50,674 bases of DNA from Candidatus Zambryskiibacteriota bacterium. Lineage in GTDB: Bacteria; Patescibacteriota; Minisyncoccia; Phycocordibacterales; DATDWN01. The notes beneath the pieces were generated by a model. It saw nothing but the letters and a program-made list of their open reading frames with translations. It had not been told where the DNA came from and did not search any database. The stretch is from assembly GCA_023267045.1 (NCBI GenBank), contig JAHFOB010000005.1, forward strand, positions 1 to 50,674, written 5' to 3'. The position numbers and the translations under genes were made by a program. Positions within the stretch are counted from its first letter, which is position 1; every line of letters begins with the position of its first letter. This document shows, piece after piece, positions 6,467 through 50,674 of this stretch.

Positions 6467-6554
6467 ATGTCAAAGAGACACTTTGACATGATGTTTTCAT
6501 TGGGAAAGTTGATAATAATAGCTCATGTCAAAGTGTCTCTTTGACATGAGCTAT
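6467..6554. repeat. Inverted pair of REP-like palindromes flanking the RAYT gene (3' side)
   Basis: atgtcaaagagacactttgacat (6467-6489) and atgtcaaagtgtctctttgacat (6525-6547); the second extends to a 16-bp stem at 6518-6554. Confidence 0.95.
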
Positions 6555-7163
6555 GGATGACAAGGCTAGGGTTTCTTTTTCAAAATCTTTATCATTCCCA
6601 AACATTGGTTTTATCAGATCGAGGTTTGTTAGTAGAAATTTTCTATTAGACACAAAGTCATTGTAACTACTCCATTTATATTTTTCTGGGCTCCCCACTA
6701 ATTTATCTTTAACAGAGTTCATATGTATGTACGCTGAAGTCCACATTAGTTGAGAATCTGTTTCTATGTTCACAGCTTTGAAACAATCTTGAAAGATATG
6801 GCCAACCCGTTTGTATTTGTTGTTTATATACTTAGAATAACTAGCACAAACTTTAGAAATTAATTTTGAAATTGATATGTCGCCACGTTGTTCTATGAGC
6901 AGATGAAAATGATTTGGCATTAAACAAAAAGAATGAATCTTAAAAAGTTTCTTACCTTCGGTTTCTATTCTTATTCTAGAATAGGGGAGATTGATCATTT
7001 TTTCATTTTTGATTTCTTCCTGTTCGAACCCCATTGCTAGAGCTATTCTAAAAAGAAAAGCTTTGTAGTCTTGTTCCTCGAGAAATACTTTTTGTTTATT
7101 ATTTCCTCTATTGTATATATGAGCGACAGTTCCTTTTGCAAAATTTTTATAGTCTCTGTTCAT
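6528..7163 (-). CDS. REP-associated tyrosine transposase (IS200-like Y1_Tnp/RAYT family)
   Basis: HUH-type 'FCLMPNHFHLLIEQ', 'SYSKYINNKYKRVGHIFQDCFKAV', 'YIHMNSVK...KWSSYNDF'; flanked by REP-like hairpins. Confidence 0.92.
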   Translation of the reverse strand: MNRDYKNFAKGTVAHIYNRGNNKQKVFLEEQDYKAFLFRIALAMGFEQEEIKNEKMINLPYSRIRIETEGKKLFKIHSFCLMPNHFHLLIEQRGDISISKLISKVCASYSKYINNKYKRVGHIFQDCFKAVNIETDSQLMWTSAYIHMNSVKDKLVGSPEKYKWSSYNDFVSNRKFLLTNLDLIKPMFGNDKDFEKETLALSSIAHVKETL

Positions 7164-7176
7164 ACTTCTATACTAC

Positions 7177-7263
7177 ATGTCAAAGAGACACTTTGACAAC
7201 CTTGACTAACTTTCAAAATGTTGGCTGTAAACATATGTCAAAGTGTCTCTTTGACATATGTTT
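7177..7263. repeat. Inverted pair of REP-like palindromes flanking the RAYT gene (5' side)
   Basis: atgtcaaagagacactttgaca (7177-7198) and atgtcaaagtgtctctttgacat (7235-7257); the second lies in a 15-bp stem at 7229-7263. Confidence 0.95.
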
Positions 7264-12129: not shown

Positions 12130-14472
12130 ATGGATAATATTAGAAATTTCAGCATCATTGCTCATATTGATCACGGTAAATCTACCTTGGCTGACAGAAT
12201 GCTTGAGATCACAGGCACAATAGAAGCCCGTAAAATGCAGGATCAAGTACTGGACTCAATGGAACTTGAGCGTGAGAGGGGTATTACCATAAAAATGCAA
12301 CCAGTTAGGATGGTTTACCATCCTCGCAGACTAGATTCAGACTTAACGCAGACTGACTCAGACACCGGGCAAAATGACTTTCTATATAAAGATTTAACTT
12401 ATAAAATACGAGGTGCTTGTTTTGCTGTCAGAAAATCATTAGGGTTAGGTCACAAAGAAATAGTGTATCAAAAAGCTTTGGAAATTGAGTTTAAAAATAT
12501 TGGCTTGAATTTTGAGAGTCAAAAAATTTTGAATGTTCTTTATCAAGATCAAAAAGTAGGAATATATACTCCCGATTTTATTATTGAAGATAAAATTATA
12601 ATTGAACTTAAATCTTTGCCTGAAATTGGCAAACCACAAGAAGAACAGTTGTGGAGCTATATTAAAGGATCTAAATATAAACTTGCACTTCTAATCAATT
12701 TTGGGAGTAAGGATGTAGAATTTAAGAGAATTGTTTATGATAGTCTGCGTCAGTCTGCGTCTAGTCTGCGACAGTCAGCGCAGATTCAGGATGAATACAT
12801 CCTGAATCTGATTGACACTCCTGGGCATATAGACTTTTCCTATGAAGTTTCTCGCGCACTCAAAGCCGTTGAGGGTTCTATTTTGCTCGTTGACTCAACA
12901 CAAGGTGTGCAAGCACAAACTCTAACAACTCTCGGAATGGCTCGCGAGTCAGGGCTGACGATTATTCCCGTGCTTTCGAAAATAGATTCGAGCTTGGCAC
13001 GTGTCTCTGAAGTTAAGCAGGAAGTCATCAAACTTTTAGGATGCAAAGAAGAAGATATCATGGAAACTTCTGGCAGAACTGGAAAAGGTGTTGAGGCACT
13101 TTTAAATGCAATTATTGAAAAAGTACCTCCGCCGACCAGCATAGACTTAACACAGACTCACGCAGAATTAAATTCAGCGAAGTCTGCGTCTAGTCTGCCT
13201 CTGTCTGCGAGTGCCTTCAGGGCACTAGTTTTTGATTTCAAATACTCAACTCATCGTGGAGTTATCGTTTTCGTGCGGGTAATGTCCGGAGAAGTAAAAA
13301 GAAACACACCTTTGGTTTTTAAAATTGCTAAAGAAACTTTCACCTCCATCGAAGTTGGAATTTTTTCACCGGGCGAAGTGGCGGTGGATAAACTTTCTGC
13401 AGGAGAAATTGGCTATATTGTAACGGGCATAAAACAACCCGGAATCGCTTCTGTTGGAGACACGGTAGCAACTATAGAAGACAAGCTCTCGCCACTTGCT
13501 GGGTATATGTCTCCCAGACCTGTTGTCTGGGCGTCGATTTATCCTGAAAGTCAGGATGATTTCACTGTTTTAAAGCAGGCACTTGGCAAACTAAAACTTT
13601 CTGACTCTTCATACACATTTGAGGAAGAATCTTCGGGCTCTTTGGGGAGGGGATTTCGCTGTGGTTTTCTCGGTATGCTCCACTTGGAAATTATTTCAGA
13701 GCGTTTACACAGAGAATTTAACTTGGAGTTGGTGGTGACCATGCCGACGATTACATATGAAGTGACCCCGAAGGAAAGTCGAGCACAACTTCCTACGGGG
13801 CAGGCTTATAAAAATAAATCATATATGGTGTATTCTCCTGCAAATTTTCCTGACGAAGGAACTTATTCTGAAATTCGTGAGCCGTGGGCAAATGTGGTTA
13901 TTATTACACCTGTAAAATATCTCTCAAATCTCATGCCACTTTTGTATGATCACGAAGCAGAAATAGGGGATTCAGAAAACTTTGGAGAAGACAGAACTAG
14001 ACTGACCATGAAAATGCCTCTTCGAGAGCTGATGCGAAACTTTTTTGATAAATTAAAAAGTGTCACCAGTGGTTTCGGTTCCATTTCATATGAAATAGAA
14101 GGAATGAGAAAAGCTGACGTTGTTCGGCTAGATATTTTAGTCGCCGACGAAATATTGCCAGCTTTTTCTCGAGTTGTTTCTCGTCGTGTGGTTGAGCAAG
14201 AAGCAGAGCAAGCTGTGGAAAAGCTTCACGCTATTTTGCCTCGCCAAATGTTTGTGATGAAAATCCAAGGCAAAGCTCTTGGCAGAATAATCTCAAGTCG
14301 AACAGTTTCAGCTTTTAGTAAAGATGTGACGCAACACATGTATGGTGGAGATATTACTCGCAAAATGAAGTTGCGCGAAAAGCAAAAGAAAGGAAAAAAG
14401 AAAATGAAAGAGAGAGGAATGGGGAAGGTTAATATTCCACAGGACGTCTTTCTAAAGATGATGAGAAGTTAA
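12130..14472 (+). CDS. lepA: Elongation factor 4 (LepA) with three extra in-frame insertions, one carrying a GxxExxY domain
   Basis: 'IAHIDHGKSTLADRMLE', 'ERERGITIKMQ', 'NLIDTPGHIDFSYEVSRAL', 'SYEIEGMRKADVVRLDILV...' LepA C-terminal domain; about 780 aa versus about 600 typical. Confidence 0.95.
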   Translation: MDNIRNFSIIAHIDHGKSTLADRMLEITGTIEARKMQDQVLDSMELERERGITIKMQPVRMVYHPRRLDSDLTQTDSDTGQNDFLYKDLTYKIRGACFAVRKSLGLGHKEIVYQKALEIEFKNIGLNFESQKILNVLYQDQKVGIYTPDFIIEDKIIIELKSLPEIGKPQEEQLWSYIKGSKYKLALLINFGSKDVEFKRIVYDSLRQSASSLRQSAQIQDEYILNLIDTPGHIDFSYEVSRALKAVEGSILLVDSTQGVQAQTLTTLGMARESGLTIIPVLSKIDSSLARVSEVKQEVIKLLGCKEEDIMETSGRTGKGVEALLNAIIEKVPPPTSIDLTQTHAELNSAKSASSLPLSASAFRALVFDFKYSTHRGVIVFVRVMSGEVKRNTPLVFKIAKETFTSIEVGIFSPGEVAVDKLSAGEIGYIVTGIKQPGIASVGDTVATIEDKLSPLAGYMSPRPVVWASIYPESQDDFTVLKQALGKLKLSDSSYTFEEESSGSLGRGFRCGFLGMLHLEIISERLHREFNLELVVTMPTITYEVTPKESRAQLPTGQAYKNKSYMVYSPANFPDEGTYSEIREPWANVVIITPVKYLSNLMPLLYDHEAEIGDSENFGEDRTRLTMKMPLRELMRNFFDKLKSVTSGFGSISYEIEGMRKADVVRLDILVADEILPAFSRVVSRRVVEQEAEQAVEKLHAILPRQMFVMKIQGKALGRIISSRTVSAFSKDVTQHMYGGDITRKMKLREKQKKGKKKMKERGMGKVNIPQDVFLKMMRS
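12327..12810 (+). mobile_element. Candidate intragenic element in lepA: GxxExxY/PD-(D/E)XK-like ORF between inverted repeats
   Basis: Insert lies between G2 (RGITI) and G3 (DTPGH) motifs. Contains 'GLGHKEIVYQKAL' and 'PDFIIEDKIIIELKS'. Left end 'gcagactagattcagacttaacgcagactgactcagac' is inverted relative to right end 'gtctgcgtcagtctgcgtctagtctgcgac'. Confidence 0.75.
13143..13210 (+). repeat. ORF-less in-frame copy of the lepA element ends (MITE-like)
   Basis: 'agacttaacacagactcacgcag...' resembles the left end and '...agtctgcgtctagtctgc' the right end of the 12327-12810 element; encodes extra 'DLTQTHAELNSAKSASSLPLSASA'. Confidence 0.75.
13765..13800 (+). repeat. Third in-frame palindromic insertion in lepA (ACCCC...ACGGGG type)
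   Basis: accccgaaggaaagtcgagcacaacttcctacgggg, an imperfect palindrome encoding extra 'TPKESRAQLPTGQ' in the LepA C-terminal half. Confidence 0.6.
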
Positions 14473-15228: not shown

Positions 15229-15339
15229 GAATTTTATAATTTTTGAATTTTTAATTTTATAAATAAATCTAAATTTCTAATTTTTAAAAATTAATTCATT
15301 AAAACATTATTTAAAAATTACAAAATTAAAAATTGTTTA

Positions 15340-15968: not shown

Positions 15969-16982
15969 TTACAACAAAGTCTTAGGTGTTAATCCCAAAT
16001 GCTCATAGCCTGAAGCAGTTACCGTTCTTCCGCGCGGAGTACGATCAAGAAATCCAAGTTGTAATAAATATGGTTCGTTGAACTCCTCAATTGTTGCTTG
16101 TTCCTCTGATATTGCTGCGGCCAAGGTATTTAATCCAACAGGTCCACCACCAAATTTATTTATTATCGTATGCAAAATATCTCTATCTGCAGGTGTTAGT
16201 CCTTGTTCGTCAATACCGAGAAGTTTTAAAGCTTCTGCCACAGAGTTTTTGGTCATCTCTGTTTTGTGAACCTGGGCATAGTCACGACAACGTTTCAAAA
16301 AGTAGTTTGCTGTACGCGGAGTAAAGCGAGATCTTTTTGAAATCTCCTGACCTGCACTTTTTTCTAGATCGATTCCTAAAATTTTAGCAGATCGAGTAAT
16401 TATTTTTTGTATTTCGTCGTTGGTATAAAACTCCAGTTTGAAAATTCCTCCAGAAAAGCGTGAGCGGAGAGGGGATGAAATCATGGCGATTCGTGTCGTT
16501 GCGCCGATCAGTGTAAATGGTGGAAGTTCGAGTTGTATTGTTCGAGCACTCGGTCCTTTTCCGATAATAATATCGAGTGAGCCAGATTCCATGGCGGGAT
16601 ATAAAACTTCCTCAATAGTTTTATTAAGGCGATGAATTTCATCAATAAAAAGTATGTCTCCTGGTGAGAGATTTGTCAGTATTGACGCTAAATCACCAAT
16701 TTTCTCTATTGCAGGACCAGAAGTCACCTTCATTTGGGCTTTTATTTCTTTGGCAATGAGATGAGCAAGGGTCGTTTTTCCAAGTCCAGGCGGACCGTAG
16801 AAAAGTATGTGCTCTGGTGGGTGATTTCGCTCTTTTGCCGCGGTAAGTAGGATCTGCAAGTTCTTTTTTACCATGTTTTGACCTATATAATCCTCCCATT
16901 TTGAAGGTCGCAAAGTGGTGTCCAAGAATAATTCTTCTTTTTCCGATACCCCATTGTCTTTGTTAGCCTGTTTTTTCTTCAT
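15969..16982 (-). CDS. ruvB: Holliday junction branch migration helicase RuvB
   Basis: 'LRPSKWEDYIGQ', 'HILFYGPPGLGKTTLAHLIAKE', 'DILFIDEIHRLNKTIEEVLYPAMES', 'LIGATTRIAMISSPLRSRF'. Confidence 0.97.
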   Translation of the reverse strand: MKKKQANKDNGVSEKEELFLDTTLRPSKWEDYIGQNMVKKNLQILLTAAKERNHPPEHILFYGPPGLGKTTLAHLIAKEIKAQMKVTSGPAIEKIGDLASILTNLSPGDILFIDEIHRLNKTIEEVLYPAMESGSLDIIIGKGPSARTIQLELPPFTLIGATTRIAMISSPLRSRFSGGIFKLEFYTNDEIQKIITRSAKILGIDLEKSAGQEISKRSRFTPRTANYFLKRCRDYAQVHKTEMTKNSVAEALKLLGIDEQGLTPADRDILHTIINKFGGGPVGLNTLAAAISEEQATIEEFNEPYLLQLGFLDRTPRGRTVTASGYEHLGLTPKTLL

Positions 16983-17012: not shown

Positions 17013-17112
17013 ACCCCAGTAGTAGAGCCGCGGTACTAGAGCAAAGCTCAGTACACGGTAAACAGCTCACTACGGGGTCTAACAGGTAGTGAGCTCTGCT
17101 CTACTACCTGTT
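17013..17112. repeat. Intergenic palindromic repeat cluster (ACCCCAGTAGTAGAGC...GCTCACTACGGGGT plus AACAGGTAGTGAGC/GCTCTACTACCTGTT)
   Basis: Two adjacent palindromes, 17013-17078 and 17081-17112, sharing the GTAGTRGAGC/GCTCACTAC core. Confidence 0.85.
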
Positions 17113-27156: not shown

Positions 27157-27175
27157 AAAAGTCAAATAATTTTAC

Positions 27176-27283
27176 AATTTTTAATTTTACAATTTTTAAT
27201 CAATTTGCAATGAATAAATTTTCAAATTGAACCATTGAAAATTCAATGAAAATTGAGAATTGTAAATTGAAAATTTGAAACTA
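27176..27283. repeat. AT-rich intergenic palindromic repeat, copy 1
   Basis: 'caatttttaatcaatttgcaatgaa...cattgaaaattcaatgaaaattgagaattgtaaattgaaaattt'; matches 44652-44751. Confidence 0.85.
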
Positions 27284-27871
27284 CGATAGTAACTTTAGTG
27301 CTTTCTTTATTTTCTCACCAGTGTCTTTGGTATCAGAAACTTTTTTCAAAGCTTCACGAACTTCGCGTTCACCATAACCGAGAGATTTCAAAGCTTCTAG
27401 GGCGTCAACATCCCCAGAAACAGAAGCACTCATATCGACAGATAGTCCAACAAGTTTGTCTTTTAATTCAATAACAATTTTTTCAGCATTTTTCTTGCCG
27501 ATGCCCGAGACTTTTGTCAGATGACTCGTGTCTCCAGTTGAAATAGCGTGCCGGAGATTTCCGAGTGTTGCGATTGAAAGTATTGCCAAAGCGGATTTTG
27601 GCCCTATGCCGGAGACAGAAATAAGAAGTTCAAAGAAGTCCAGTTCTTCTTTTGTACCAAAACCATACAGGTCCAAAGCATTTTCACGGACAGCCAAATA
27701 TGTCCAAAACTCTGTCGTAGTCGACGCCTTATATGATTTATCGCCTGCGCTTCGCTTCGGCAAGGAAGTCGTGTTTGTATAAACTTTGTAGCCGACTCCA
27801 GATACATCTAAAATGACAGATTTGATGTCTTGATGTACCAACGTGCCCTTGAGGTGACCAATCATAGGCAC
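27281..27871 (-). CDS. ruvA: Holliday junction DNA helicase subunit RuvA
   Basis: 'MIGHLKGTLV', 'SGIGPKSALAILS', 'VSGIGKKNAEKIVIELKDKL', C-term 'ALKSLGYGEREVREALKKV'. Confidence 0.93.
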   Translation of the reverse strand: MPMIGHLKGTLVHQDIKSVILDVSGVGYKVYTNTTSLPKRSAGDKSYKASTTTEFWTYLAVRENALDLYGFGTKEELDFFELLISVSGIGPKSALAILSIATLGNLRHAISTGDTSHLTKVSGIGKKNAEKIVIELKDKLVGLSVDMSASVSGDVDALEALKSLGYGEREVREALKKVSDTKDTGEKIKKALKLLS

Positions 27872-43845: not shown

Positions 43846-43904
43846 ATAAAATTTTATAATTTATAATTTTTAAAAATTAAAAATTCAAAAATTAAAAATT
43901 ATTT

Positions 43905-44660
43905 ATGCAACCCGAAATACTATACGAAGACAAAGATGTATTGGCTATAAACAAGCCGTCTGGACTTGTTGTTCACCTCAGTAGTAGAGCAAAAGCTCAC
44001 TACGGGGCAAGCAGTGACGAAGAGCACACTTTGGTTGATTGGATTATGTCAAAATATCCAGAAATAAAAGAAGTCGGCGAGCCAGGAAAAACCCCAACAG
44101 GACAAATAATTTATCGTCCCGGCATTGTTCACAGACTAGACAGAGAAACTTCCGGAGTGATGTTGGTGGCAAAAAATCAAAAATCTTTTGAAAATTTGAA
44201 AGAGCAATTTCAGAAGCACGAAATAGAAAAAACCTATCATGCTTTTGTTAATGGAGAAATTAAAAATGAAGAGGGTGTGATAGATAGACCGATCGGTCGC
44301 AGTAGTAAAGATTTTCGTATGTGGTCAGCTCAACGTGGTGCTAGGGGAGAGATGCGAGAAGCTGTGACAAACTATAAGGTTATCTCTCGAAAGAAAATAA
44401 ATGCCCAAGGGTATTCCTTTATTGAAGTTCGTCCTAAAACTGGTAGAACACATCAGATACGTGTTCATTTCAAAGCCATTCATCATCCACTTGTTGCTGA
44501 CTCACTCTACGCTCCATCTACAGAAAATAGTCTTGGTTTCAAACGTCTAGCTTTGCATTCCTACATTGTTACTTTCAAAGATACAAAAGACAAAAGTCAT
44601 ACTGTTACAGCGCCATATCCGGAGGATTTTGAGAAAGCGATTAAAATTTTCAATTTTTAA
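43905..44660 (+). CDS. rluD: RluD-like 23S rRNA pseudouridine synthase
   Basis: 'ILYEDKDVLAINKPSGLVVH', 'RPGIVHRLDRETSGVMLVAKN', 'EVRPKTGRTHQIRVHFKAIHHPLVADSLY'. Confidence 0.93.
   Translation: MQPEILYEDKDVLAINKPSGLVVHLSSRAKAHYGASSDEEHTLVDWIMSKYPEIKEVGEPGKTPTGQIIYRPGIVHRLDRETSGVMLVAKNQKSFENLKEQFQKHEIEKTYHAFVNGEIKNEEGVIDRPIGRSSKDFRMWSAQRGARGEMREAVTNYKVISRKKINAQGYSFIEVRPKTGRTHQIRVHFKAIHHPLVADSLYAPSTENSLGFKRLALHSYIVTFKDTKDKSHTVTAPYPEDFEKAIKIFNF
43977..44007 (+). repeat. In-frame palindrome in the rluD-like gene
   Basis: ctcagtagtagagcaaaagctcactacgggg; same core as the intergenic 17013-17078 repeat; encodes 'LSSRAKAHYGA'. Confidence 0.75.
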
Positions 44661-44751
44661 TTTTGCAATTTTCAATCAATTTACAATGACCAAATTTCAC
44701 ACTGAAACATTGAAAATTCAATGAAAATTGATAATTGTAAATTAAAAATTA
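44652..44751. repeat. AT-rich intergenic palindromic repeat, copy 2
   Basis: 'caattttcaatcaatttacaatgacc...cattgaaaattcaatgaaaattgataattgtaaattaaaaatt'. Confidence 0.85.
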
Positions 44752-44807
44752 TTTAGTCAGATTGTAATTTGCAAAGTTAGATTTAATATGTTAGCTTACT
44801 AATCACT

Positions 44808-49774: not shown

Positions 49775-50662
49775 ATGAATAATATTTTGATAACTGAAAA
49801 GTCAGCTGACTATGAACTACTAGACAGTGGTAATGGTGAAAAGTTAGAAAGATATGGAAACGTAGTTTTGTCACGTCCAGATCCGCAGGTTTTGTGGCAA
49901 AAATCTCTTGGAAAAGAAGAGTGGGAAAAAGCAGATAGCGTTTTTACTCGAGACGGCACTTCAGGCAAATGGAATATAACAAAAGAACCATGGCAGATTA
50001 GTTTTGAAGATTTAAAGTTTAATCTCAAACTTCTTCCTTCAAAACATCTTGGCATTTTTCCCGAGCAGTCATCGCAGTGGAAGTGGCTCTATGATAAAAT
50101 TTCCCCAAGGGTCACCCTTGGGGGGAAAATTTCTGTTTTAAATCTGTTTGCATACACTGGTGGAGCGACACTTGCTTGTGCAAAAGCCGGTGCAGAGGTC
50201 TGTCATGTTGACGCTTCAAAGTTTGTAGTTGACGCAGCTCACAAAAATTTAGATTTATCTAGTTTAGGAGACAAAAAAGTTAGATTTATCGTTGATGATG
50301 TCCGAAAATTTGTAGAGCGAGAAGTAAAACGTGGAAACAAATATGATGTTATTTTGCTTGACCCACCAGTCTACGGAAAGGGAAGTAACGACGAAGTGTG
50401 GAAGATCGAAGAAGATCTCGCACCACTTCTTTCTCGAATAAAAAGTATACTTTCTCCAGATCCAGTAGCTATTGTGCTCAGCGGATATGCCTCTCTCTAT
50501 TCACACACAACATACGCTCAAATGCTTGCAGATATAACAAAAGATTTGAAAGGAACGATTTCTTCTGGCGAGCTTGCAATACGAGAGTCGTCCGGGGACA
50601 GACTTTTGCCCTGCGGTATTTACGCACGTTTTGAAGGTCAATCATTGAAAATTGTAAATTAA
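49775..50662 (+). CDS. Class I SAM-dependent methyltransferase (RlmI/RlmK-like)
   Basis: 'VLNLFAYTGGATLACAKAGAEVCHVDASKFVVDAAHKNLDLS', 'YDVILLDPPVYGKGSNDEVWKIEEDL'. Confidence 0.92.
   Translation: MNNILITEKSADYELLDSGNGEKLERYGNVVLSRPDPQVLWQKSLGKEEWEKADSVFTRDGTSGKWNITKEPWQISFEDLKFNLKLLPSKHLGIFPEQSSQWKWLYDKISPRVTLGGKISVLNLFAYTGGATLACAKAGAEVCHVDASKFVVDAAHKNLDLSSLGDKKVRFIVDDVRKFVEREVKRGNKYDVILLDPPVYGKGSNDEVWKIEEDLAPLLSRIKSILSPDPVAIVLSGYASLYSHTTYAQMLADITKDLKGTISSGELAIRESSGDRLLPCGIYARFEGQSLKIVN
50096..50132 (+). repeat. In-frame palindrome in the methyltransferase gene
   Basis: aaaatttccccaagggtcacccttggggggaaaattt, encoding 'KISPRVTLGGKIS' just before 'VLNLFAYTGG'. Confidence 0.75.
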
Positions 50663-50674
50663 AAATTAAAAATT

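Follow-up and report, generated by a model that had tools for sequence, protein, structure and literature searches.

Palindromic DNA elements lying in frame within protein genes are known above all from Rickettsia; elsewhere, isolated cases involve REPs. The Rickettsia elements, or RPEs, which PMC10969869 credits to Ogata and colleagues, are palindromic selfish DNA that interrupts many unrelated protein genes, one for a pseudouridine synthase among them, without breaking the frame, and each genome has multiple families (PMC3733652, PMC10969869), and a review gives their length as about 150 bp (PMC10969869). Intragenic units of the GTAG type of REP have been described in Opitutus terrae, Thauera, S. 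maltophilia and others, and intragenic in-frame REPs are known in uvrD, tRNA synthetase and pseudouridine synthase genes (Di Nocera et al., 2013, PMC3733652).

The hairpin repeat described here, found in a window of 50,674 nucleotides of a Candidatus Zambryskibacteria genome (the whole stretch of DNA analysed), resembles the RPEs in being inserted in frame in unrelated protein genes whose orthologues lack the insert. However, it is about 36 nt long, belongs to an unrelated phylum and forms a hairpin with two bulged As, and we liken the two by behaviour, claiming no homology. With the GTAG-type REPs it shares a palindrome of 20-40 bp in many dispersed copies (here about 25 of some 36 nt in 750 kb), subfamilies with compensatory stem changes, intragenic in-frame units, and frequent inverted dimers, intergenic copies being often paired with an inverted hairpin (PMC3733652). 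In contrast to those REPs, it has no unpaired GTAG tag, the GTAG pairing with CTAC and covarying with it (GTAC...GTAC) in the predicted stem, and no cognate RAYT gene flanked by the repeat, a feature often but not always found in REPs (PMC3733652). Because its GTAG is paired and covarying and no associated transposase was found, we do not class it as a GTAG-REP. No paper linking REP or RAYT to Patescibacteria was found in the literature searched, which consisted mostly of non-subscription papers, and such a repeat is apparently unreported in this group.

Sequence and structure of the hairpin repeat

The copy from which the analysis started lies in the gene of an RluD-like pseudouridine synthase of 251 aa (43905..44660, + strand; PF00849, E 3e-32), where the palindromic element CTCAGTAGTAGAGCAAAAGCTCACTACGGGGCAAGC occupies positions 43977..44012 (+; core 43981-44003) and encodes LSSRAKAHYGAS. 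The sequence-only reading had placed the peptide LSSRAKAHYGASSDEEH directly after the motif NKPSGLVVH, and in-frame reading of the 251-aa ORF confirms that it stands there, immediately C-terminal to the motif and before TLVDW. It had also seen the core shared with an intergenic repeat at 17013-17078; this holds, and the intergenic site proves more elaborate. It lies on the + strand, with ruvB (15969..16982, − strand; identified from ORF and sequence) downstream, and takes a compound form at 17014..17077, in which the loop of an outer element (CCCCaGTAGTAGAGC...GCTCACTACGGGG) contains another complete element (GTACTAGAGC AAA GCTCAGTAC). The nested core, GTACTAGAGCAAAGCTCAGTAC (17033..17054, +), is a compensated G-C to C-G variant, and an inverted partner element, AACAGGTAGTAGAGC/AGA/GCTCACTACCTGTT, follows on the − strand at 17081..17112, with the inverted copy at 17086-17107. 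The related genome G007 has an inverted pair upstream of ruvB as well.

Searching the genome (750,170 bases in 31 contigs, the window being contig 13) returned 12 exact copies and 21 with at most three mismatches, against none for a reversed-pattern control; with nested, long-loop and slightly divergent copies included, there are about 25. In the window the paired motif GTAGTAGAGC-N-GCTCACTAC is present three times; 200 dinucleotide shuffles gave no instance of it. A chance match is ruled out by the shuffles and control patterns, and the possibility attached to the original observation, that the genome holds two copies only and that they match within random expectation, falls with it.

Along the repeat run CCCC, an unpaired A, GTAGT, a second unpaired A, GAGC, a loop of three bases, GCTC, ACTAC, GGGG and a CAAG/CAGG tail (consensus CCCC-a-GTAGT-a-GAGC-nnn-GCTC-ACTAC-GGGG-CAAG; window copy 43977-44012), both unpaired As being on the 5' arm. 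Among 169 copies from the genome itself, the genus and other genomes, the conserved stretch extends from about -6 to +29 around the core. The second unpaired A (core position 5) is invariant in 168 of the 169, while the stem varies with compensation: G-C becomes C-G at the fourth pair (10 of 169 copies) and T-A becomes C-G at the fifth, and the outer stem shows C-G replaced by T-A, G-C and A-T. In 37 distinct copies, both partners had changed in 34 cells, where shuffles gave 7.8 +/- 2.2, and 92.9% of cells were paired, compared with 25-37% when slid. Single-strand folding predicts a bulged hairpin for the RluD copy (z -4.9) and the same structure for the compound intergenic copy (z -5.6). Half-site matches with no standard partner proved to be tRNA-Phe D-arms or variants of the compound or long-loop kind, and none of the half-site matches read held a nuclease or other ORF in the hairpin loop. 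The tRNA-Phe D-arm (GCTCAGTAGTAGAGCA; L308 1469-1543, L311 1456-1530) has 15 nt in common with the RluD copy of the window.

Placement of copies and distribution across genomes

A count of coding against intergenic copies and of their phase, as the sequence-only reading had proposed, gives 13 in-frame copies inside 12 protein genes (the count is by open frame and so misses any stop-frame insertion that has inactivated its gene) and about 12 outside protein genes. One family is indeed both intergenic and present in reading frames, and frame continuity in single-copy core genes makes it very likely that the latter copies are translated.

Intergenic copies often have a second hairpin behind them in inverted orientation, whose upper stem is long and variable (GTAGTGAAGTTGGCAT...ATGCCAACTTCTACTAC); the two form a BIME-like pair. 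One copy lies in an rRNA spacer. The copy at G000:C7:41691 (L004 1501-1522) has 23S rRNA segments on either side; the region includes an intron-like insert and an ORF of about 207 aa that resembles an intron endonuclease gene. Another copy (G000:C11:29297, L005), in a frame that contains a stop, lies at the 5' end of a complete RNHCP-like gene. On its other side is a fragment (MPFTKTTENFVC) that looks like an RNHCP N-terminus and is similar to the N-terminus of the complete gene; the copy is possibly a stop-frame insertion with duplication. The window also contains AT-rich AATTTTTAATTTT-type repeats at gene ends (15230-15291, 27160-27295, 43850-43900, 44644-44770 and 50629-50674).

The repeat is present in most genomes of the genus (Ca. 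Zambryskibacteria) and elsewhere in Patescibacteria, with exact copies in 14 of the 61 genomes searched, including its own; a species-wide collection yields at least 113 stretches that contain one. Among the matches listed, most are from Patescibacteria (Nomurabacteria, Zambryskibacteria, Kazan, Taylorbacteria and others), the remainder being a group of Flavobacteriaceae and single others. The Flavobacteriaceae (Lentiprolixibacter, Robiginitalea, Eudoraea, Ulvibacter) carry a 19-base exact core, often in a repeated agagggggagccaa context (L195, L203, L219, L253, L255 and L259). Viral carriage was looked for, and a single viral contig matches the repeat.

Outside its own genome, exact copies across Patescibacteria are mostly intergenic. 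Together with the many intergenic copies in inverted pairs with a second long-stem hairpin, this would suit a family consisting mainly of intergenic regulatory or terminator hairpins, whose in-gene members would be annotation errors, pseudogenes or assembly artefacts. However, the in-gene copies lie within domains of core genes that appear to be single-copy, and the sequence on either side of them is conserved; in-frame copies also occur in several other, separately assembled genomes of the genus, in topA (at a different site), trigger factor, holB, a ychF-like GTPase and glycosyltransferases (named from sequence). We regard this explanation as largely refuted already and very improbable.

In-frame copies and their host proteins

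The host genes, identified with family models, are argS, tyrS, dnaK, topA, secA (in the C-terminal linker), rplY, typA/bipA, comEC, a pif1-like helicase gene, the RluD-like gene and uvrD/pcrA, the last with in-frame elements at two sites, as well as a 395-aa ORF that has no Pfam match. Leaving out this ORF, orthologues without the insert were found in related genomes for 11 of the 12 host genes, that is for 12 of the 13 insertions. Relative to genus orthologues, the gain at the DNA level is 33 nt in argS and at one uvrD site, 36 nt in dnaK and topA, 60 nt in the pif1-like gene, and 69 nt in tyrS and rplY, where elements are nested; clean inserts thus measure 33-36 nt, or 60-69 nt for nested doubles. 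At the exact site of the 69-nt rplY insert, genome G006 has a simple 36-nt element, so that the longer form is 36 + 33, a second element having been gained in the loop of the first. Both the insertion and the in-frame status of the gene copies are established. No target-site duplication, as would mark a MITE of that type, is evident in the alignments to empty orthologous sites, where one of 1-3 nt could escape notice; this is as expected for Y1-type insertion.

Four of the six frames of the element are stop-free and two have stops. Three of the stop-free frames are in use, two in sense (VVEQSSLR and SSRAKLTTG) and one in antisense (RSELGSTTG), and the fourth, the hydrophobic antisense VVSFALLL, was not seen inside any gene. 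All 13 in-gene copies are a multiple of three in length and stop-free, the chance of avoiding the stop frames being 0.005, a value biased by the ORF criterion. SSRAxLTTG-like peptides in several proteins might suggest a selected protein module whose coding DNA is palindromic by accident, but three different frames of this DNA, from both strands, are in use, and conservation lies in DNA pairing, stem changes on one arm being compensated on the other; the mixed frames refute this reading.

The element is a stable hairpin inside essential genes, where added residues might have a cost, and it could therefore be transcribed yet absent from the protein, through ribosome hopping or RNA processing in the manner of the bypassing elements of certain mitochondria. 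Such elements require neither a stop-free frame nor a length that is a multiple of three, whereas every in-gene copy here has both and the hydrophobic stop-free frame is unused. With bypass unneeded, we give this possibility little credence.

Instead, we consider it highly probable, setting aside for now the question of mobility, that the repeat is a short non-autonomous mobile palindrome tolerated in frame as extra protein loops. REP/MITE-like hairpins of about 33-36 nt would insert genome-wide in this Zambryskibacteria species and its relatives, and insertions in genes may survive as 11-12 extra amino acids, or 20-23 for nested doubles; they can do so because the element adds a whole number of codons and four of the six frames are stop-free. 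The added residues probably sit in surface loops, and the hydrophobic frame seems to be selected out. Since argS, tyrS, topA, secA and dnaK apparently have no second copy in the genome, their insert-bearing proteins must work. We infer that the inserts stay in the mature protein and are neutral (selfish) rather than adaptive.

In RluD orthologues the spacing from VVH to TLVDW is usually eight residues. Most of those in the genus have this normal short loop and none has the hairpin element, and comparison with them indicates that the window's copy is a lineage-specific insertion. The gene shows a net gain of 27 nt versus its orthologues, best read as a 36-nt insert plus the loss of 9 nt from the native loop. 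Its relatives in the PDB, which are solved RluD structures, lack the insert, and AlphaFold run on the single sequence gave a pLDDT of 44 and no usable model. Four genus genomes, including the window's own, have longer RluD loops, each with a different DNA insert; the sister orthologues concerned are at L042 (G003), L044 (G002) and L048 (G001). That of G003, CCTGCCTGCGCAGACAGG, is a member of a different palindrome family, which has dispersed copies in G003, G001 and G006 and none in the other nine genomes. Because relatives' loops hold different inserts, the RluD loop is a repeated landing place, where at least two of the inserts are palindromic repeats. A broader view would be that Patescibacteria have an RPE-like process of their own, in which unrelated palindrome families compete for permissive loops such as that of RluD, nest in one another and feed new loops into core proteins, moved by an undescribed mobiliser; we put this forward as a speculation and rather doubt it.

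In this reduced Patescibacteria genome, about half of the copies are in frame in protein genes, several of which are core genes. Sister species have the empty sites, which makes it possible to trace stepwise how old translated selfish DNA is, how it is tolerated and what becomes of it. Loop insertions in Patescibacteria proteins may be derived from repeats instead of having a function, with consequences for structure prediction, annotation and phylogenies.

Candidate mobilisers

Movement in trans by a Y1/HUH-class transposase acting on single-strand hairpins is our working hypothesis and the weakest step of the proposal, one that we hold tentatively and would not call probable. The window encodes a candidate of this class, an IS200-like (Y1) transposase of RAYT size (6528..7163, − strand; PF01797, E 1.5e-11), and Y1 genes, mostly of RAYT size, were found in 8 of 12 genus genomes. 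Across these 12 genomes the number of elements tracks that of IS200-like genes (Spearman 0.91, and 0.88 when less complete genomes are left out), a correlation that vanishes outside the genus (rho 0.03). At the genus Y1 loci examined, no Y1 gene is flanked by the hairpin repeat, the detectable flanking repeats being the loci's own palindromes. Near some 110 element-bearing loci, a search with about nine RAYT queries found one Y1 gene, about 4.6 kb away.

The same translated palindromes could have been moved by something other than Y1/RAYT, such as a GxxExxY-type PDDEXK nuclease or replication template-switching, an explanation that departs from ours in the mobility step alone. The Y1 genes lacking the repeat at their flanks, the missing correlation outside the genus and the lepA gene of the window, whose inverted-repeat insertion carries an ORF and a PDDEXK nuclease, speak for it, while the strong correlation within the genus, the repeated nesting and the clean boundaries, which fit an enzyme recognising the foot of the hairpin, argue for Y1. 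We take this second route as a serious contender, about as credible as the first and likewise short of probable.

As a RAYT/TIRtron locus, the Y1 gene of the window has palindromes of its own that are unrelated to the hairpin repeat: ATGTCAAAGAGACACTTTGACAT is found at 6467-6489, 6525-6547, 7177-7199 and 7235-7257, and a pair of ATGTCAAAG...CTTTGACAT palindromes stands on each side of the gene (6467-7258). Other RAYTs of the genus likewise have their own distinct flanking palindromes. In lepA (12130-14472), an in-frame insert at about 12340-12790 carries a PDDEXK_3 (GxxExxY-like) nuclease domain within the GTPase domain (aa 87-201; PF13366, E 5e-32), flanked by translated inverted repeats at 12338-12363 and 12743-12768.
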